Positions 5,021 through 40,651 of a stretch of 64,000 bases of DNA are shown in pieces. The DNA is from Erysipelotrichales bacterium (GTDB lineage: Bacteria > Bacillota_I > Bacilli_A > Erysipelotrichales > Erysipelotrichaceae). The notes under the pieces are model-generated. The model was not told where the DNA came from. It made no database searches and saw only the letters and a list, made by a program, of their open reading frames with translations. Position 1 is the stretch's first letter. Each line of letters opens with the position of its first letter. The stretch is taken from the NCBI GenBank assembly GCA_910575705.1, contig CAJTFG010000004.1, positions 62,001-126,000 of the forward strand, in the 5' to 3' direction. The translations under genes and the position numbers were made by a program.

Positions 5021-5587
5021 ATGGCAATACGTATCTTTATCGATCAGGGGCATAATCCGGGGTATATCAATGCGGGTGCTTCCGCAAACGGATTGAGTGA
5101 AGCGGATGTGACGTATCATGTGGGAGCTTATCTGGCAGATATGCTGGCGTCTGACAGCCGTTTTGAAGTGCGGACATCCAGAACATATCCGGAAGAAGTA
5201 CTCGGTTACGATACACCTTCCAGTTTGCAAGAGCGGGTATATCAGGCAAATAGCTGGCCGGCTGATTACTTTATCAGCATTCATGCCAACTATAATGAAA
5301 ATCCGGCGATCAACGGCAGTGAGGTTTATGTGTATCAACGATATTCCCGGGCATGGCATTTGGGGGAAGATGTTTTAGACAGCATTGTAGAAGTAGTCGG
5401 TACAAGAGACAACCTAGTTCGTGTAAATCCGTCTTTATATGTGCTTCGTCGAACGACGATGCCGGCTATTCTCGTAGAGCTGGGATATTTGACGAATACA
5501 GCGGATGCGGAAAAGCTCAGAGATGATCAATATGCATTTGCGCAAGGAATTTATTTGGGAATATTGCGTTATTTTGAGCTTGTTTGA
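5021..5587 (+). CDS. N-acetylmuramoyl-L-alanine amidase (Amidase_3), no signal peptide
   Basis: This 188-residue protein is a bare Amidase_3 catalytic domain. The zinc ligands are DQGHNPG (His11), GLSEAD (Glu27) and SIHAN (His88), and the catalytic Glu153 is in LVELGYLTN. It cleaves the bond between N-acetylmuramic acid and L-alanine in peptidoglycan. There is no signal peptide, SH3 or other wall-binding repeat, so it is either released by lysis, exported by a non-classical route, used in the mother cell during sporulation as for CwlC of Bacillus, or takes internalised wall fragments. The sequence does not decide between these. A GGAG-type ribosome site precedes the ATG. The gene follows the nagA terminator directly. 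Confidence 0.88.
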   Translation: MAIRIFIDQGHNPGYINAGASANGLSEADVTYHVGAYLADMLASDSRFEVRTSRTYPEEVLGYDTPSSLQERVYQANSWPADYFISIHANYNENPAINGSEVYVYQRYSRAWHLGEDVLDSIVEVVGTRDNLVRVNPSLYVLRRTTMPAILVELGYLTNTADAEKLRDDQYAFAQGIYLGILRYFELV

Positions 5588-15877: not shown

Positions 15878-16336
15878 GTGAACGTAAAAAGCAAGACATT
15901 AAAAATACGGAATCTGCCACAGGGCAAGAAAAGACTGGCTTGTATCAATTCAAAACCATATCTTTTTATTGTGATGTTTTTGTCTTTTGGCGCTTATGCT
16001 ATATGGAAAGGCTATTATGTGGTAGGGGCGATCATTCTTGCCGTTTTTCTGTTTAATTTGTTTTGTATACCGAATAAAGTCGTTACAGAATTTTATGAAG
16101 AGTATGCCGTATATTATTATGAGCAGGAAAAGGATGAATGTTTCATATTATTTTGGGAAGATATCGCATCATGGATATATTATCCGAAGATGAATGATCT
16201 TGATCTGATCGAGATTGAATTGAAGGATCATGCCCGGATTTGTTTTAAATGTCTTTCCAAACACAAGACCATGCAGTATTTTCAGATGTTTGCACCGAAT
16301 AAAGAAAAAACGAAGGCGAAGGTACGTATCTTATAA
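15878..16336 (+). CDS. Hypothetical membrane protein with possible PH-like domain
   Basis: This 152-residue protein has a basic N-terminus, then two adjacent membrane segments (about residues 27-60: PYLFIVMFLSFGAYAIW and VVGAIILAVFLFNLFCI), and a cytoplasmic beta-rich half (VVTEFYEEYAVYYYEQEKD, FILFWEDIASWIYYP). Two helices followed by strands with a conserved Trp resemble small bacterial PH-domain membrane proteins, but the match is by pattern only. The start is a GTG at 15878 with AGAGGG ahead of it. It is followed by the DUF554 gene, which has its own extended -10, so co-transcription is uncertain. Confidence 0.6.
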   Translation: MNVKSKTLKIRNLPQGKKRLACINSKPYLFIVMFLSFGAYAIWKGYYVVGAIILAVFLFNLFCIPNKVVTEFYEEYAVYYYEQEKDECFILFWEDIASWIYYPKMNDLDLIEIELKDHARICFKCLSKHKTMQYFQMFAPNKEKTKAKVRIL

Positions 16337-17117: not shown

Positions 17118-17918
17118 ATGGAATATGTAGATGTAAAGAGAAAAGTAAATGAACTGTTGATGAAGAAAAAGGCGGTTCTTACTCTTTTGGTCGCTCTTTC
17201 GCTTTTGTGGGTATATGGTGTTCAGATATTGAACCCTTTATTGGCAACCGGGAATTCTTCGATCGATTTCGCCATGTCGTTTGCTTTTAGTCTGCTCAAT
17301 GTACTTATCAGCAATATCGTCTTTTTCTGTGTATTGAAGCATACGCGTAAAGAGCGATTTGGTATGAATGAGATTCGTTTTTGGTTGCGTCATCTGCCGA
17401 TGCAGATCTTTATGGCGACGCTCTATATGCTGTTTCGGCTTGCTCTCGATACGCTACTCAGGATTTTCGGAATGATCTTGCTGTTTATTTATCTGCCGCT
17501 TACGCTTTGCTTGACGATCCTTTATTTTTCGGCAGAGTGTACGATCGCTTTTTGCATATATGATAACGGTGTCAACGTTATGGAGATCCTACGCGGTGTT
17601 TTACTGTTTATACAAGCTCGCTGGAGGGTTTTGCTGCGCAGCGGATTTCCTTATCTATTAAGTAATTTTGCCTATGCGCTCTGTTTGACGCTCGTTATTA
17701 AAGATTCGCTGCAGATGACAAATAATATGCTGGATATCATGAAGACAGTCGAATATCTCATTTCTGATCCGATGAGCGGTACCTTGTTGTCTATTATCGG
17801 ATTAACGTTCGTGTTTTGGATCGTCTTCGCATATTTTGAACTGTGTATATTTATGACGACGGCAGTCGTGTATGAAGAGGACCGGCCGCTGTATTTCAGC
17901 CGTATAAAAACAAAATAA
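17118..17918 (+). CDS. Hypothetical polytopic membrane protein
   Basis: This 266-residue protein has about six hydrophobic segments (VLTLLVALSLLWVYGVQIL; SFAFSLLNVLISNIVFF; MILLFIYLPLTLCLTILYF; the last near residues 228-250). The layout resembles DUF975-like or glycerophosphodiester-associated membrane proteins, with an amphipathic start and a central cytoplasmic loop, but I cannot name the family. AGGAGG lies 6 bases before the ATG. It is second in the operon with the DUF554 gene and ends at a good terminator. Confidence 0.65.
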   Translation: MEYVDVKRKVNELLMKKKAVLTLLVALSLLWVYGVQILNPLLATGNSSIDFAMSFAFSLLNVLISNIVFFCVLKHTRKERFGMNEIRFWLRHLPMQIFMATLYMLFRLALDTLLRIFGMILLFIYLPLTLCLTILYFSAECTIAFCIYDNGVNVMEILRGVLLFIQARWRVLLRSGFPYLLSNFAYALCLTLVIKDSLQMTNNMLDIMKTVEYLISDPMSGTLLSIIGLTFVFWIVFAYFELCIFMTTAVVYEEDRPLYFSRIKTK

Positions 17919-17977: not shown

Positions 17978-18007
17978 TTAACCAAAAGGGTACGGGCTCA
18001 TATAATA
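17978..18007 (+). promoter_or_regulatory. Promoter of the giant repeat gene; fits both vegetative and late mother-cell consensus
   Basis: Read as a sigma-A promoter: TTAACC (17978-17983), 17 bases, TATAAT (18001-18006). Read as a sigma-K type promoter: AC (17981-17982), 16 bases, CATATAATA (17999-18007), which fits CATANNNTA exactly. Sequence alone cannot choose. Confidence 0.5.
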
Positions 18008-18052
18008 GAATGTCTTAGAGAAATCATAGGCTTATATATGAGGAGGATGAAA

Positions 18053-21000
18053 ATGAGCAAATGCAACCAAGATGACTTTCATGAAGATGTGAGGATGGAT
18101 ATGGATTGCCCATGTGAACCTTTTCTTCAAGGCTCCATGGATATTATCATTGAAGAACAGCAGGAGGATGGGACTCCTGATCAGCATGAGAACACCAGAT
18201 ATGTGAAGGTTTGCGGTTCTGTGGAGGACTGCCGTGTGTACCCGTTGAAGACAGACGGGGAAACGGGGATCGGTTCGCTTCATCTGGAGGAGATACAATC
18301 GGTAAAAAATGTCCTTGTCTTAGTGGATGAAAACGGCCAGCAGATCATGGATCAGGATGCATACGAGATTTCCTATTACGTGAACGGAGAAGAACAGCAG
18401 GAGGATCATGCCGCTGTTGTTATGTCTTGTGAGGAGCAGGAGCACCATGAGGTTCGCATCGTGATCCGGCATAAACCGATGCTGCGTCTGCATGTGACAA
18501 AGCAGCTGCGCGATGCGTGTATGGAACTGCAGGATCCTGCAGAGGATATGCGTTTTACTTTGCATTTGTGCGGTATGGGGATTTCAGAGACAATCGTGCT
18601 GGATGCGCAGAATGATTTTTCGGTATGCGTAGAGCATCTTTACCCGGGCGTTTATACGCTGGAAGAGGAAGAAGTGTGCGGATACGGCACGGTTTACCGT
18701 TTTGATGATGGCGAGGAGACAGAAACAGCACAGTTTGAATTGATAAGCGGAACGCATGATGTACAAGTCATCAATCAGCAACTGGCCGGCAGCGTTTTGA
18801 CGATCGATAAGTATATTCGCGATGAAGGCGGAGAGCTGATCAAACCGCAGGACGGGGAATGCTTTGAAGTGCGTATCATCGGGGATCAATTCGATGCCGT
18901 TTATACGCTGACATGTGAAAATGACTTTTTCATAGAACTGAGGGATCTGGAACCGGGATTTTATGATGTCAGTGAAACTTCCGGTCAATATGAAACGAGT
19001 TATTTAGTGAATCATCAGATGGAAAGCGGATATGCGCATGTAGAGGTGCGCCGCTGTGAAGCAAGCAGCGTTTTGATCATCAATACGCCGATCGGTTGCA
19101 GCGGCTGTGAGAGCCCGCTGCGTATTTGTAAGTTTATCCGCCGCTGTGACGGTTTGCTGGTACGTCCGGACGATGATGCCTGCTTCAAAGTCATGCTGTG
19201 CGGCTGTGGATTTTATCAGACGTTTAACTTGAATGCCTGCAATAATTTCTGTGTGGATATTGACAATATCTGCTGCGGAGAATATGAGATTCGTGAAATC
19301 GATAATGAATGCTATAAGACAAGCTATATCATAAATGACGGCTGTGAGCGTACAAGCGCCTATGTCTGTTTGCATGAAAATGAATGCAATGTTATCAGCA
19401 TTATCAATGAAGAACGCAACAAGGGCTGTGTCAGCATCTGTAAATTTATCCGCAACGAACGCGGGGATCTTGTGAAACCGATGAAAGGTGATCGCTTCGT
19501 CGTGACACTGAGAAGCTTCTTCTTCCGTGAAACCTTTGTATTGGATGAGCACAATGATTGGTGCATGCATTTCGATCATCTGCGGGAAGGCAGCTATGAG
19601 GTACGGGAGCGCAGTATCGACGGCTATGATACGACGTATATCGTCAATGGATGCAAGGAAAGAAAACGTGCCCGTTTTATCGTAGACGGAGATTGCGGCA
19701 ATGAGGTACGTATCGTTAATACGCCTTGCCGTGATGACTGCGGAACTTTAAAGGTATGCAAATATATGGAACTGCAAAACGGAGAACTCGTAAAGCCGAA
19801 TGCCGATGAAAGCTTTGAATTTTCGCTACAGGGACCATGTACGGATGAATGCTTTACGCTTCATGCCCGCAATCACTGGTGCGTGATACTGGAAGGATTG
19901 AAACGCGGGGATTATACGATAACGGAACAATGTGCCGGTGGTTATGATGTTCGATATTTGGTAAACGGCTGTCCGGCGGAAACCGCAGAAGTATGTATGA
20001 ACAGTGAAAATCAAGAGGTATCGATCATCAATACGAGACCGCGCGGCGGCAATCTTACGATCGAGGCATGGATACGGGATTGTGAAGATGTGATGTGGAA
20101 ACCTTGCGGCAATGCATGTTTTGAAATCTATGTAGAGCATCGAAATGAAACACGAAGCTATACGCTGGATGCCCGCAATCGCTGGCGGATTATGCTGGAT
20201 GATCTGGAACCGGGTAAATATCGCATCATTCAGAAAGACAGCTATGGATATGAGGTAAGCTATGAGATCCAGCATGAAGAGATGGCGCATGGCGCGGTGG
20301 AATTAGACGGTAATGACCAGACCGTGAAGATCGTCAATTCCCTCAGCAACTGCCAGGGAATGGTAACGATCGAGAAAACGATCGTCGATGCGTGCGGAAA
20401 TCGAACGAAACCGTGTCCAAACAGTGAATTTACCTTCTTATTGCGTGCATCCGGACTGAAAAAACGCTTTACGTTAGATGATTCTAATGATTTCTGCGTG
20501 TACTTTGATGATTTAAGAGAAGGCATGTATCATTTGGAAGAAGAGACGGAAGGCTATGAGGTATCCTATATCGTCAATGGTATAGAAGCAGACCGCGGAC
20601 AGTTTGTTTTGGGAAGAGAGGATATTCATATCGAGGTGCGCAATACAGAGAAGCCGCAGCCGGTTTTATGCGTAGAAAAACGCATTCGCAAACAGGGACG
20701 CTTATGTATGCCGGAACCGTGTGAAAGCTATGAATTCGTCCTTACCGGAAAAGATGTTCACGAAGTATATACACTGGATGTATCCAATGACTTTACCGTA
20801 TGCTTATGCGATCTTTGCCGCCAGCATTATGAGATTCGTGAACTTCATGTAGATGGCTGTGTGTCTTATCTCATCGACGACAGTTTGCAGGCTGACGGTT
20901 ACTTCTTATTTGATGACCGGGATATGAATATAACGATCATCAATGAAGAGGGCTGCGATGATCGCGTGCGTATATGCAAGGTGATCGAGGAGAACGATCA

Positions 21001-24000
21001 GCAATTTAAGCCATACCGTTGGGAAAGCTTCGATATTCAGATTGAGGGAAGAAACTATAAGAATCGCTTTACGCTGGATTGTGATAATGGCTGGTGTATC
21101 GATATCGATCATCTGGCGCCGGGAAATTATCAGGTTCGTGAATTAGGCGATTATGACAATTCCTTTATGGTAAACGGAGAGTGCAGTAAAAACGGAAGTT
21201 TCTTTGTAGGAAGTGGTGATACAGAAGTTACGATTATCAATCATGTATGCTGCAGCGGAACACTGCAGATTGCGGCATATGATGTGGATTGCGATGAGCG
21301 GTGTATGCCAACATGCGGTAAATACAGTTTTGTATTATCCACCTGTGATTGGCAACAGACGTATACGCTGAGCCGAGAAAATGATTGGAGCTTATGCTTT
21401 GATGAACTGCCATCCGGAGATTATACTTTGGCGGCATGTGATGATCATGTACGCGTGGAAATTGACGGCGACTCCGGAAAAAAAGTCAGCTTCCATCTGG
21501 AATGCGAGACAAAGGCGGCATCGCTGCTTATCGTGCCGCAGACATGCCGGCATACCCTTGTGATCGATAAAAAGATGCGGGACGCAAACGGGAATGTATG
21601 CAAACCGGAAGAGGGGATGTATCAGATAGAAGTATGCGGCGAGGAAGGTACACAGACATTCTGCTTGCAGGAGAATAATGATTATTGTGTGGAAACGGAG
21701 CTTTCACAAGGAGAAGTGACAGTATCCGAATGCGGATATGAGGATGCTTTGTATCAGTTTAATGGCGGTCCGCTGCATAAAACTGCCCGCTTCCGGCTTT
21801 GCATGGACAGCCGGCTGACGGTTTTCAACCGCTTGTCATGCCGTTCTTCCATCTGTATACAGGGAACCGTGGAAAACTGTGAAAAAGAGATGGTTTCTCC
21901 AAGACGAGACGATTGTTTTCAGATCACGTTAAAAGGCGAATCTTATTGTGATACTATTACCTTAAACCGAAGGAACAGCTGGTGTGCATGTTTTGATGAC
22001 GTACCTGCTGGACGTTATGAGCTTTCCAGTTCATTATCGGGATATGAGAGCGTTTCTTTTGAAAAACAGAGATGCGCTCATCCTACAATATGTGTCGATG
22101 GCGATGATATCGATCTGGATGCCGTTTATAAAATGTCCTGTCATCGGGGAAGCATTGAAATTTTGAAATATCGAAAAGACGGCAGCTGCGGATGCTTTGT
22201 GCGCCCTTGCCAGAATGAAAGCTATGATATTCATGTATGGTCGGATCATTATGATGAAGTGATCGTACTAAACCGTGATAATGCATGGCGCAAGCGTCTG
22301 ACACAGCTTCCGGATGGCACCTACCATGTGGAAGAACTGCATAGTGAGGATGAGGTTTCCTATATCGTTAACGGGGGAAAAGAAAGCGAAACCGCGATCG
22401 TGGAAGTGCATGGGAATACGTCTTATGTGAAGGTACTGAATGCGAAACGAACGCAGGGAAGGGGAAGTATTGAGATCTGCAAGTTTATCAAGGGTGAGGG
22501 CATGCTGGAACGCCCGCAGCCGGATGCTTCTTACACTGTTCTTTTGAAAGGACCGAATGGGACAAAAACGTATGATCTGAATGAAGACAATGATTTTTGC
22601 GTAACGGCATCATCGTTGCCAGAAGGAACGTATGAAGTAGTGGAAGACGGGAATGAGGATAAGGTAAGCTATATCGTAAATAACGGATGTGAGACGAATC
22701 GGGGGATCGTCCATGTCATGCAGAACCATAATTGTGTGCAAGTATTGAATAAGATGCAGAGCAGGGGAAGCCTTCTCATATCCAAATTTGTGAAAGGCGA
22801 AGACGGTAAACTTCATACGCCGGATGAAACGCAGTCTTATCGGGTACACGTATCTAAGGCAAATTTTAATGAGATCATAACGCTGTCGAAAGAAAATGAT
22901 TTCAAAGAGCACCTGCGCGATTTGGATGACGGCTGGTATGTTGTCGATGAGCTGGATCATGAGGACGTGACTTACCGCATCAACGGCGGCAGCGAGGTGG
23001 ATACAGGTGCAGTTCGTATAAGAGGTGATGAACAGGATGTATGGATCATCAATCCGCAGCCATCCGCAACCGGTTCGATTACCGTAACGAAGTATATGCG
23101 TACCGACCAGCATTATCATAAACCGGCAGATACCGATGTGTTCCGCTTTCATATGTCACGGCCCGGATTTAATGAGGTATATACGCTGAACAAGGAGAAT
23201 AATTGGACTCAGGTAGTAGATTATTTGGAAGATGGCAGTTATGTTTTGCAGGAAGTTGACAGTCCTTATGAGGTCAGCTATGTCATTAACGGTGGATCGG
23301 AGACGAACTTCGGTATCGTCGATGTTCGGGGGAACGATAATACCGTATTTATGATCAATACGACACAGAACGTATCAGGAAGTATTCGCATCATGAAATA
23401 CATTCGTGCGGAAAACGGACAGCTGGAACGTCCGACAGGGGATTTCCGCGCACAGATACACGTATCGAGACCGGGATTTAATCAGTTCTATGATCTGACG
23501 AGCGCCAATGACTGGACCGTGAATATCACGGGATTGGAAAACGGACAGTATGTATTGGATGAAGTGGATGCACCGGGAGATGTCACGTATATCATCAACG
23601 GCGGCAGTGAGGTGCAAAACGGTATCGTTCGTGTACAGGATAATGCCAATCAGGTACAGATGATCAACAGTACGACGACGGTTGGAGGCAGTATCCGCGT
23701 CGTGAAGTATATCCGTGCTCAGGACGGACAGCTCATTCGTCCGCAAGCGAACTTTACCGCGCGTCTGCATGTGTCAAGACCGGGGTTCAATCAGTTTTAT
23801 GATCTGACGAGCACCAATGACTGGACTGTAAATATTACGGGATTGGAAAACGGGCAGTATGTATTGGATGAAGCGGATGCATCGGGAGATGTCACGTATA
23901 TCATCAACGGTGGCAGCGAAGTGCAAAACGGCATCGTCCGCGTACAGGATAATGCTAATCAGGTACAGATGATCAATCAGGAAACCGCATCCTCCCGCCT

Positions 24001-24988
24001 GTATTTACAAAAATACAAGAAAGACGGAAACGGCAATATGCTTCCGCCGGATGAAGGAGACGAGTTCCGTGTTCATATAACGTCCTATGATTATGATGAA
24101 ACGGTCGTATTGAATGCACAGAATGAGTTTCAGACGATATTGGAAGGACTTGCGCCGGGTTCTTATGCGGTAGAGGAACTGAACGCAGGAGGCTATCGGA
24201 CGACTTATCGGATCAACGGTGCGCAGGAAACGGAAAATGCCATCATTGAGATCATAGAAGGAAGTACGATTTCTGTAGATATCCTCAATGAGGAAATCAG
24301 CGCAGCCAGCAATTTGGATGTGTACAAATATATTGTGTATCAAAACGGAAACGTTGTGAAACCGAACCGAGATGAGGTTTTCCGTATTCGTATCTTCAAT
24401 AACGATGTTGATGAAACGTATACATTGGATGAAACGAATCGCTGGCATTTGCAGACACAGGATCTGCCGCAAGGTACGTATCAGTTGGAAGAGATTTCGC
24501 AATCCGGATATCGCGTGCAGTATCAGGTAAACGGCGGTGCTTCCAGTGATCAGGCACAGTTTACGGTTTCTCCGGGTGTTGCGAACTTTATCGAAATTAT
24601 GAATACCCGACAGATCGAGCAAGATGGTCTGCTGGAGATGACAAAACGCGTGCGAAGCCAAGACGGAGAACTTGTTATGCCTTCTAGCAACCAATCATTT
24701 GAAATACGTCTGTATAACAATATGGGATATAGCGATACGTTTACGCTGGAATCCAGAAATCGTTTTACGATGCGTGTGGCTTCCTTGACAAGAGGTGTCT
24801 ATCATGTAGAAGAGATGGGCAATACCGTTTACGATGTGACATATATGGTAAACGGCGGTACGGAAACGAGCGATTCGCGCATCGTATTAGATGGACCGGA
24901 TGTACAGACGCTGACGATCATCAACACGCGTACGGAAATGTTTTATAACATGAGCAGCGACAACAATCTCAAGATCGTGATCGAATAA
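18053..24988 (+). CDS. Giant protein of 21 tandem CnaB/prealbumin-like repeats, no export signal
   Basis: This 2,311-residue protein has a non-repeated N-terminal region (residues 1-143) and 21 tandem domains of 98-109 residues. A typical domain reads: (V/I)xKxIR...G.L.(K/R)P...F.V.L, then a tripartite L..(N)(D/N)W/F, L..G.Y.(V/L).E, GY...Y.(V/I)NG, and ends V.(I/M)(I/V)N. Lys in the first strand, Glu in the middle YxVxE and Asn in the last strand correspond to the Lys-Glu-Asn triad that makes intramolecular isopeptide bonds in CnaB/SpaA domains. By my reading the triad is complete in 18 of 21 repeats. There is no signal peptide, LPXTG motif, membrane helix or choline/SLH domain. About 94 cysteines occur up to residue 1571 and none after. 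ATG 18053 was chosen for AGGAGG 6 bases upstream. It is monocistronic. A structural cytoplasmic or spore-surface role is inference. Confidence 0.85.
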   Translation: MSKCNQDDFHEDVRMDMDCPCEPFLQGSMDIIIEEQQEDGTPDQHENTRYVKVCGSVEDCRVYPLKTDGETGIGSLHLEEIQSVKNVLVLVDENGQQIMDQDAYEISYYVNGEEQQEDHAAVVMSCEEQEHHEVRIVIRHKPMLRLHVTKQLRDACMELQDPAEDMRFTLHLCGMGISETIVLDAQNDFSVCVEHLYPGVYTLEEEEVCGYGTVYRFDDGEETETAQFELISGTHDVQVINQQLAGSVLTIDKYIRDEGGELIKPQDGECFEVRIIGDQFDAVYTLTCENDFFIELRDLEPGFYDVSETSGQYETSYLVNHQMESGYAHVEVRRCEASSVLIINTPIGCSGCESPLRICKFIRRCDGLLVRPDDDACFKVMLCGCGFYQTFNLNACNNFCVDIDNICCGEYEIREIDNECYKTSYIINDGCERTSAYVCLHENECNVISIINEERNKGCVSICKFIRNERGDLVKPMKGDRFVVTLRSFFFRETFVLDEHNDWCMHFDHLREGSYEVRERSIDGYDTTYIVNGCKERKRARFIVDGDCGNEVRIVNTPCRDDCGTLKVCKYMELQNGELVKPNADESFEFSLQGPCTDECFTLHARNHWCVILEGLKRGDYTITEQCAGGYDVRYLVNGCPAETAEVCMNSENQEVSIINTRPRGGNLTIEAWIRDCEDVMWKPCGNACFEIYVEHRNETRSYTLDARNRWRIMLDDLEPGKYRIIQKDSYGYEVSYEIQHEEMAHGAVELDGNDQTVKIVNSLSNCQGMVTIEKTIVDACGNRTKPCPNSEFTFLLRASGLKKRFTLDDSNDFCVYFDDLREGMYHLEEETEGYEVSYIVNGIEADRGQFVLGREDIHIEVRNTEKPQPVLCVEKRIRKQGRLCMPEPCESYEFVLTGKDVHEVYTLDVSNDFTVCLCDLCRQHYEIRELHVDGCVSYLIDDSLQADGYFLFDDRDMNITIINEEGCDDRVRICKVIEENDQQFKPYRWESFDIQIEGRNYKNRFTLDCDNGWCIDIDHLAPGNYQVRELGDYDNSFMVNGECSKNGSFFVGSGDTEVTIINHVCCSGTLQIAAYDVDCDERCMPTCGKYSFVLSTCDWQQTYTLSRENDWSLCFDELPSGDYTLAACDDHVRVEIDGDSGKKVSFHLECETKAASLLIVPQTCRHTLVIDKKMRDANGNVCKPEEGMYQIEVCGEEGTQTFCLQENNDYCVETELSQGEVTVSECGYEDALYQFNGGPLHKTARFRLCMDSRLTVFNRLSCRSSICIQGTVENCEKEMVSPRRDDCFQITLKGESYCDTITLNRRNSWCACFDDVPAGRYELSSSLSGYESVSFEKQRCAHPTICVDGDDIDLDAVYKMSCHRGSIEILKYRKDGSCGCFVRPCQNESYDIHVWSDHYDEVIVLNRDNAWRKRLTQLPDGTYHVEELHSEDEVSYIVNGGKESETAIVEVHGNTSYVKVLNAKRTQGRGSIEICKFIKGEGMLERPQPDASYTVLLKGPNGTKTYDLNEDNDFCVTASSLPEGTYEVVEDGNEDKVSYIVNNGCETNRGIVHVMQNHNCVQVLNKMQSRGSLLISKFVKGEDGKLHTPDETQSYRVHVSKANFNEIITLSKENDFKEHLRDLDDGWYVVDELDHEDVTYRINGGSEVDTGAVRIRGDEQDVWIINPQPSATGSITVTKYMRTDQHYHKPADTDVFRFHMSRPGFNEVYTLNKENNWTQVVDYLEDGSYVLQEVDSPYEVSYVINGGSETNFGIVDVRGNDNTVFMINTTQNVSGSIRIMKYIRAENGQLERPTGDFRAQIHVSRPGFNQFYDLTSANDWTVNITGLENGQYVLDEVDAPGDVTYIINGGSEVQNGIVRVQDNANQVQMINSTTTVGGSIRVVKYIRAQDGQLIRPQANFTARLHVSRPGFNQFYDLTSTNDWTVNITGLENGQYVLDEADASGDVTYIINGGSEVQNGIVRVQDNANQVQMINQETASSRLYLQKYKKDGNGNMLPPDEGDEFRVHITSYDYDETVVLNAQNEFQTILEGLAPGSYAVEELNAGGYRTTYRINGAQETENAIIEIIEGSTISVDILNEEISAASNLDVYKYIVYQNGNVVKPNRDEVFRIRIFNNDVDETYTLDETNRWHLQTQDLPQGTYQLEEISQSGYRVQYQVNGGASSDQAQFTVSPGVANFIEIMNTRQIEQDGLLEMTKRVRSQDGELVMPSSNQSFEIRLYNNMGYSDTFTLESRNRFTMRVASLTRGVYHVEEMGNTVYDVTYMVNGGTETSDSRIVLDGPDVQTLTIINTRTEMFYNMSSDNNLKIVIE
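18482..24985 (+). repeat. Tandem coding repeats R1-R21 of the giant gene
   Basis: Repeat starts read from the sequence: 18482, 18791, 19118, 19427, 19739, 20048, 20357, 20663, 20963, 21257, 21551, 21845, 22148, 22463, 22766, 23072, 23378, 23687, 23996, 24308, 24623. R21 is followed by a short tail. Units diverge strongly except R17 and R18. Confidence 0.85.
23378..23995 (+). repeat. Near-identical tandem pair R17-R18 (309-bp unit)
   Basis: The halves starting at 23378 and 23687 encode almost the same protein from RPGFNQFYDLTS to the closing QVQMIN, including the same NITGLENGQYVLDE block, with mostly synonymous DNA differences. This indicates a recent duplication inside an old array. Confidence 0.85.
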
Positions 24989-25014
24989 GGAAAGCACTCG
25001 CTTTCCTTATTTTT
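24985..25014 (+). terminator. Intrinsic terminator of the giant gene
   Basis: ATAAGGAAAGC (24985-24995) pairs with GCTTTCCTTAT (25000-25010), then T5. The stem overlaps the stop codon. Confidence 0.85.
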
Positions 25015-39085: not shown

Positions 39086-39169
39086 CCCATCGACATCCTT
39101 GTGATATGGGGCCGCCCGAGGTATAATATAATTGTAGGTTGGCTCCCGTTTAACGGAAGGGAGCTAATT

Positions 39170-40651
39170 ATGGATAGTAGAATAGATGCAATTTATGGGC
39201 GGCAGTCGATTGACAAAAAGGACAGCATCAGCATTGAAAGTCAATTTGAATTTTGCCGTTACGAGCTAAAAGGCGGTGAGGCGAAAGAATACAAGGACAA
39301 AGGGTACTCCGGCAAAAACATTGAACGGCCCGATTTCCAGCGGCTTTTGAAAGACATCAGAACCGGGCTTATCCGGCGAGTGATTGTCTACCGTCTGGAC
39401 AGGATCAGCCGCTCCATTGTGGATTTCGCAAAGCTGATGGAGCTGTTTAAGCAGTTCAAGGTGGAATTTGTTTCCTGCACCGAAAAATTTGATACGTCAA
39501 CCCCGATGGGCCGGGCGATGCTCAATATCTGCATCGTGTTCGCCCAACTGGAACGGGAAAGCATCCAGATGCGCGTAACGGACGCCTTTTACTCCCGGTG
39601 TGCCAAGGGCTACTATATGCGGGGCCGCGCTCCATACGGTATTGATACGGAGCCCATCGTGATGGACGGTATCAAAACAAAACGGCTGATTGAAACCGCT
39701 GAGATGGAATATGCCGAATTGATGTATGAAATGTACGCGGAGCCCGAAACCTCCTACGGCGATATTACCCGGTATTTCACCGAGAATGAAATTCAAGTGT
39801 ACGGGAAAACGCTGAAACGGGGATTTGTGGCGCAGCTCCTGCGGAACCCGGTTTACGTCCAGGCCGACATGGACATTTACGAACACTTCAAGGTACAGGG
39901 CGCGAAAATCGAAAGCCCCCCGGAATTGTTCACGGGCGATTATAGCTGTTACTTATACCAGGGCCGAGAGGGGGAGGAAAACATTCTGGTGATTGCGCCC
40001 CACAAGGGCCGTATCCCCTCGGCGCTCTGGCTGAACGTCCAGCACAAGCTATCCCAAAACACCACGTTCCAGAATGGCCGGAAATGCCACAATACGTGGC
40101 TGGCCGGGAAAATCAAGTGTGGGTGCTGCGGATATGCGTTAGTGGGGCTGAACGCCGCAAACGGGGTGACGTACATGAGATGCAGACAGCGCGTAGAAAA
40201 CAAAAGCTGTCCGGGGCCCGGAACGCTGACACGGCATGAACTGGAAAAATCGGTGTATGATGAAATGGTAAAAAAGATGCGGGAATTTCAGACGCTGAGG
40301 GGCAGCAAGGCGGAGGGGTATAATCCAAAGCTGACCGCCGCCCGCGCCAAACTTGTCAAAATCGAAAGCGAGATTGAAAAGCTGATTGATACGCTGACCG
40401 GGGCAAACCCTCTCTTGTTGCAGTACGCCAACAGCCGGATTGAAGAATTGGACACGGAGCGGCAAAAGCAATTAAAGCTGGTGGCCGACCTCACCGCTAA
40501 TTCTGTTTCAAGTTCTCAGATTGATAGTATAACGGGCTATCTCCAAAATTGGGATGAGGTTAGTTTTGACGACAAACAGCGCGTTGTGGATACGCTGATT
40601 TCTAAAATCGAGGCCACCAGCATCGAGCGCGTGATACACTGGAAAATCTAA
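39170..40651 (+). CDS. Large serine recombinase
   Basis: This 493-residue recombinase has an N-terminal resolvase domain with the catalytic serine in IYGRQSIDKKD and arginines in YRLDRISRS, then a recombinase domain (PYGIDTEP, NPVYVQADMD), a zinc ribbon (KCGCCGYALVG ... CRQR ... SCPG) and a C-terminal coiled coil (LVKIESEIEKLIDTL). It should cut and rejoin att sites to integrate and excise the element, as for TnpX-like proteins. The ATG at 39170 has AAGGGAG ahead of it; TATAAT upstream at 39123-39128 may be its promoter. The gene is intact, so the element could still be active. Confidence 0.92.
   Translation: MDSRIDAIYGRQSIDKKDSISIESQFEFCRYELKGGEAKEYKDKGYSGKNIERPDFQRLLKDIRTGLIRRVIVYRLDRISRSIVDFAKLMELFKQFKVEFVSCTEKFDTSTPMGRAMLNICIVFAQLERESIQMRVTDAFYSRCAKGYYMRGRAPYGIDTEPIVMDGIKTKRLIETAEMEYAELMYEMYAEPETSYGDITRYFTENEIQVYGKTLKRGFVAQLLRNPVYVQADMDIYEHFKVQGAKIESPPELFTGDYSCYLYQGREGEENILVIAPHKGRIPSALWLNVQHKLSQNTTFQNGRKCHNTWLAGKIKCGCCGYALVGLNAANGVTYMRCRQRVENKSCPGPGTLTRHELEKSVYDEMVKKMREFQTLRGSKAEGYNPKLTAARAKLVKIESEIEKLIDTLTGANPLLLQYANSRIEELDTERQKQLKLVADLTANSVSSSQIDSITGYLQNWDEVSFDDKQRVVDTLISKIEATSIERVIHWKI

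Follow-up and report, generated by a model that had tools for sequence, protein, structure and literature searches.

The window, the whole stretch of 64,000 nucleotides analysed here, encodes a giant protein of CnaB-type repeats that we judge likely to serve a structural role in the spore envelope, whether in the coat, in the exosporium, or as a hair; it would be made late in the mother cell and is probably built as a tough rod into the outer layers of the spore. The protein has 2,311 amino acids (262.9 kDa, pI 4.6). A short N-terminal segment and a degenerate beta domain precede its 21 tandem repeats, after which comes a short conserved tail. The gene and its immediate surroundings are arranged as follows.

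17981..18007 (+), putative sigma-K-type promoter: AC, 16 nt, CATATAATA
18041..18046 (+), ribosome-binding site AGGAGG, 6 nt 5′ of the ATG at 18053, read from the sequence; orthologues are arranged alike
18053..24988 (+), giant CnaB-repeat gene, 2,311 amino acids plus stop (ATG 18053, TAA 24988)
18053..22735 (+), cysteine-bearing part, residues 1-1561, which contain all 94 Cys
18131..18481 (+), N-terminal beta domain, CnaB-like, without the Lys/Glu/Asn triad
18482..24928 (+), 21 tandem CnaB-type repeats of ~95-108 amino acids each, with the triad in 18
20036..20341 (+), repeat 6, triad lost (A/Q/N), a loss shared at this position by almost every long orthologue
21245..21538 (+), repeat 10, triad lost (A/A/P), a loss shared at this position by almost every long orthologue
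21833..22153 (+), repeat 12, triad lost (G/S/Y), as at this position in most long orthologues
22736..24985 (+), cysteine-free part, the last 750 residues
24929..24985 (+), C-terminal tail ending NNLKIVIE (relatives' consensus DDLRIVIE), modelled with low confidence
24989..25014 (+), hairpin GGAAAGC-ACTC-GCTTTCC followed by TTATTTTT, a likely terminator read from the sequence

A sequence-only reading had described this frame as an almost unbroken series of CnaB/prealbumin-like domains with no export signal. That observation is confirmed as a whole: the frame at 18053-24988 is open, and the count of 21 repeats and the coordinates are correct. A mechanical start at 18038 would lengthen the protein by five residues; the ATG at 18053 is preferred because it agrees with the conserved MSK/MNK start of the relatives. 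An earlier start codon supplies no leader, as an in-frame stop lies just upstream with the putative -10 box in between. Selection on the relatives is purifying (dN/dS ~0.07 between close species), so the frame is neither a chance opening nor a pseudogene.

The family assignment, which had been made by pattern, holds at the level of the predicted fold. The whole protein matches Pfam SpaA with 59.3 bits (cut-off 23.1); profile searches with 32 single repeats are mostly negative, giving one SpaA and one Cna_B match, both weak. AlphaFold models were made of two parts, with nine orthologues each (shallow alignments): residues 1-661 (mean pLDDT 83.0, pTM 0.32) and the last 335 residues (mean pLDDT 83.9, pTM 0.41), in which single domains are well predicted and their relative orientation poorly. 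The models are of CnaB/transthyretin-like beta sandwiches, and the top solved structures found by Foldseek are mostly CnaB-containing (PitA, CNA B1B2, B. anthracis TIE, BcpA, and SpaC), with E values that reach the order of 1e-14 (3.5e-14 at best). In a second structure comparison, the CnaB2 domain of 8bdw gave a Z score of 9.7 (rmsd 2.9 over 90 residues), but beta domains of UGGT score as high; Z alone is therefore unspecific, and much of the assignment rests on the sequence triad. PDB sequence searches returned no convincing match.

The isopeptide triad expected of the CnaB-type domain family comprises Lys in the first strand, Glu, and Asn/Asp in the last strand. It can be recognized, as Lys, Glu, and an Asn at the end of the last strand, in 18 of the 21 repeats; in repeats 6, 10, and 12 Lys and Glu are both missing. 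Among 260 scorable domains of 15 related proteins, 191 have both Lys and Glu, 56 have neither, and 13 are discordant (6 + 7); these counts come from kindred, non-independent sequences, so a nominal p is no true probability. In Spy0128 and other CnaB domains the bond closes upon folding, with no partner enzyme. Each competent repeat would form its own Lys-Asn isopeptide bond, aided by the conserved Glu, to give up to 18 bonds in a 22-domain rod that is perhaps ~100 nm long when extended. A rival to this chemistry, though not to the location, is that the fold carries no isopeptide bonds in the cell and that the triad is structural. Genus g55 and G075 of genus g67 have shed most triads and kept the protein, as that reading would have it; we nevertheless consider it quite unlikely, since loss of Lys goes with loss of Glu, E often giving way to Q where K has become A, V, I, or T, as if the pair acts in bonding, and since CnaB bonds arise without help from another enzyme.

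Repeats 17 and 18 (23363-23980, + strand) share 81% DNA identity, far above other repeat pairs, and both match one and the same repeat in other genera; we read this likeness as a local duplication or gene conversion. Repeat 3 (19091-19414, + strand) is the most conserved, and its Cys of GCG and first Cys of ICCG are invariant in nine orthologues, which suggests that these cysteines may have a special role.

The absence of a signal peptide, LPXTG motif, and membrane segment, claimed earlier for this protein, is borne out by a hydropathy and motif scan that extends to all orthologues. The best 19-residue Kyte-Doolittle mean in the giant protein is 0.94, and no orthologue has a membrane window; no N-terminus resembles a signal peptide (the strongest hydrophobicity window starting in the first 60 residues reaches 0.47), and the last 80 residues of the orthologues contain no LPXTG sorting signal. 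Sortase (PF04203) has no match in the source genome, which is 100% complete, so the giant gene is maintained there without any sortase; matches to PF04203 were found in all ten of the relatives tested that carry the giant gene. The protein thus does not appear to be a sortase-anchored pilin or MSCRAMM, which would combine a signal peptide, LPXTG with a C-terminal transmembrane segment, and a sortase in the genome. As the domains would close their own bonds on folding, no export would be needed: the protein could fold in the cytoplasm of the mother cell, where an export signal is unnecessary. CnaB repeats are a usual component of exported stalks (survey PMC12617251), and the protein might be a vegetative surface adhesin that leaves the cell by an unrecognized route; given orthologues devoid of signal peptide, transmembrane segment, and LPXTG, and a source genome devoid of sortase, this is very unlikely.

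If the protein served growing or sporulating cells as a cytoplasmic scaffold or ruler and never reached the surface, it would likewise need no export signal, and the near-constant number of 21 repeats in several genera would suit this role. The number is not fixed, however (~16 in g55, 17 in G075, and 22 in G066), and bonded, protease-resistant rods with many cysteines are ill-suited to a reducing cytoplasm that is discarded; of the readings considered we find this one the least probable.

The distribution of the gene was followed with a repeat profile in 196 genomes of one taxonomic family, a sample and not a census. The profile matches in 18 of these genomes, and the giant is present in 16; the other two matches are a 507-residue relative (G012) and a single repeat (G026). 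The giant gene is old and single-copy, encodes 1,749-2,436 amino acids, usually with 21 repeats, and occurs in 7 genera of the family; named carriers include Longicatena caecimuris DSM 29481 and Amedibacillus dolichus DSM 3991. Profile searches of a class sample (395 genomes) and a phylum sample (392 genomes) revealed no giant relatives outside the family. In a contig search, the single protein as query found no relatives, and an alignment of orthologues found 11. Fourteen complete copies and the short G012 form were inspected in full. The source protein and that of G014 are colinear end to end at 33% identity, for many repeats the best match in other genera is the repeat at the corresponding position, and a pyruvate:ferredoxin oxidoreductase gene lies 3′ of the giant in many genomes, but not in most of genus g65.

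The G012 relative (L012 5658-7181) lacks the triad, lies just 5′ of the pyruvate:ferredoxin oxidoreductase gene, in the same place as the giant, and follows a short frame of its own that shows repeat-like residues. No SpoIVA match is present in G012, but sigma-E/K-like genes are, and for this reason gene decay after loss of sporulation was rejected as an explanation. In G026 one weak repeat match falls in a different large frame; this genome gives no match to SpoIVA, nor any sigma-E/K-like gene above 71 bits, a point in favor of the vegetative adhesin. A search for divergent giants in other SpoIVA-positive genera gave only weak single-repeat matches, and a likeness between orthologue N-termini (SFLETI..P) and a neighbor protein in g65 was dropped, as the neighbor is an FHA/DUF6382 protein.

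The giant gene is associated with sporulation. Of the 16 genomes that carry the giant, 14 have SpoIVA, while among all 196 genomes 35 do; the two giant-bearing genomes without SpoIVA are 86% and 66% complete. Counted by genus, SpoIVA is found in 7/7 giant-bearing genera versus 17/60 sampled (p = 5e-5, the genera being kindred and non-independent). The family of proteins appears to occur in spore formers, with the short relative in G012 as the exception, and the confinement of the giant to SpoIVA-positive genera argues against the adhesin. Ten SpoIVA-positive genera of the family have no giant, so it is dispensable for sporulation; it would be either a lineage-specific addition or a gene lost in those ten genera. 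The source genome has a sigma-K-like gene scoring 286 bits, just under the curated cut-off of 299 bits, and a sigma-E-like gene of 250 bits. L. caecimuris, which has a giant orthologue, was recovered from faeces treated with ethanol and is regarded as spore-forming (PMC8340488).

The promoter region points in the same direction. Each of the 14 complete orthologues has the motif CATATA(A/C)T 25-58 nt 5′ of its frame, and AC stands 16 nt further upstream in five of the seven genera and is missing in two. In C. difficile, sigma-E and sigma-K promoters have similar -10 boxes and differ at -35 (ATA versus AC); in the sigma-K promoter of sigK these elements read CATATAAT and AC, which the motif and AC of the giant resemble (PMC3789822). 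The AC-16 spacing is one base below the consensus spacing quoted in PMC5749712. The motif is found once in the window, against 2.2 expected by chance, and the source promoter can also be read as sigma-70 (TTAACC-17-TATAAT), a reading in favor of the adhesin, although other orthologues fit this poorly; the case for sigma-K therefore rests on conservation. Searches for a regulon in the source genome gave one other match to the extended motif with one mismatch, and six matches to AC-N16-CATATAMTA versus two in the control; besides the site of the giant itself, the remaining five do not lie clearly 5′ of genes, and no regulon could be drawn. RNA polymerase with sigma-K or, less likely, sigma-E would transcribe the giant gene at a late stage in the mother cell.

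The hairpin and T run past the stop (24989..25014), which are missing from the output of a mechanical scan, and the promoter-like site that the next gene has of its own indicate that the giant is probably monocistronic. Two small genes precede it, at 15878-16336 (+, 152 amino acids) and 17118-17918 (+, 266 amino acids, membrane-like); neither has a Pfam match, and likely counterparts precede the giant in other genera too.

The 94 cysteines amount to 4.1% of the residues, and full-length orthologues have 55-97, mostly N-terminal, a skew common to most relatives. So many cysteines speak against an adhesin. The cysteine-rich N-terminal two-thirds may be cross-linked by disulfides into the layers of the spore surface, and the C-terminal 750 residues, free of cysteine, may project outward. 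Together with SpoIVA co-occurrence and the sigma-K-like promoter, the richness in cysteine lends indirect support to the idea of a mother-cell product. Such a product could also lie outside the spore layers, freed at lysis of the mother cell to form an inter-spore mesh of fibres, comparable to the cross-linked ones reported around spores of Bacillus thuringiensis. The same promoter and SpoIVA evidence would fit, spore-associated extrasporal fibres exist (PMC11952670), and the title of a 2025 paper cited in PMC12617251 speaks of auto-crosslinking sporesilk fibres; but the conserved cysteine-rich part is better suited to covalent incorporation into a layer, and no assembly motif or polymerizing partner gene was recognized beside the giant gene, so an inter-spore matrix seems unlikely.

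An envelope protein of this kind has relatives in chemistry among known systems. With the CnaB/SpaA domains of sortase-assembled pilins and MSCRAMM stalks (PF17802 and PF05738) the giant shares the predicted fold, the Lys/Glu/Asn positions, and the tandem repeats; it differs in having no signal peptide, LPXTG, or genomic sortase, in its 94 cysteines, in its occurrence with SpoIVA, and in single repeats that barely match Pfam. To our knowledge, CnaB repeats do not occur in CdeC or CsxA, two cysteine-rich exosporium proteins of the spore surface in Clostridia. These self-assemble into layers or lattices, and resemble the giant in their high cysteine content (PMC6101409; PMC7333573).

Closer parallels are spore proteins with isopeptide-type beta repeats (DUF11), such as the appendage proteins of Clostridium taeniosporum and CrdA-C of Bacillus cereus (PMC5749712); sigma-K-like promoters have been reported for the C. 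taeniosporum appendage genes (PMC5749712). Those proteins are short and have collagen-like partners, and their DUF11 domain is CnaA-like (PMC12617251), whereas the giant is CnaB-like and a single protein. F-Anchor-3 of F-ENA fibres (DUF4183-DUF11-CsxA-like) also has tandem isopeptide-type domains and is a proposed link between fibre and exosporium (PMC11952670); it carries zero to four DUF11 domains and recognizable anchor domains, and Pfam found no anchor domains in the giant. Nor does the giant appear to be a DUF11/CLIPPER repeat protein, as a Pfam scan to E = 1 contains no DUF11 and the catalytic position is Glu, versus Asp in DUF11.

The earlier suggestion that such a rod would be a new use of the fold stands only in part: CnaA-like DUF11 repeats are already present in spore appendage and anchor proteins (PMC5749712; PMC11952670), though we found no description of CnaB rods there. 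A search of a literature consisting mostly of papers available without subscription gave no account of spore proteins with CnaB repeats, and of the three papers it yielded on the spore surface of gut Erysipelotrichaceae none, by title and abstract, deals with such a protein. The giant could tentatively represent the first CnaB-based spore layer, a possibility to which we give somewhat less than even weight in its full form: a 22-domain mother-cell rod with at most 18 isopeptide bonds, a disulfide-linked cysteine-rich base, a cysteine-free projecting end, and a conserved pattern of bonded and unbonded repeats (6, 10, and 12 unbonded) by which the length or stiffness of a spore hair might be determined. 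If so, a conserved CnaB rod made in the cytoplasm would extend isopeptide chemistry to the inside-out assembly of spores. The giant would then also be a concrete candidate for a component of the spore surface in gut Erysipelotrichaceae, and the idea is directly testable in cultured L. caecimuris and A. dolichus.

Elsewhere in the window, a gene at 5021-5587 (+) encodes a 188-residue N-acetylmuramoyl-L-alanine amidase whose relationship to CwlD scores 79 bits, under the cut-off; it shows no obvious signal peptide and may act in the mother cell or in lysis. A large serine recombinase resembling XisF/Ccr (39101-40651, +) is located near a GC-poor stretch at ~40-50 kb, which suggests that an integrated element may lie nearby.
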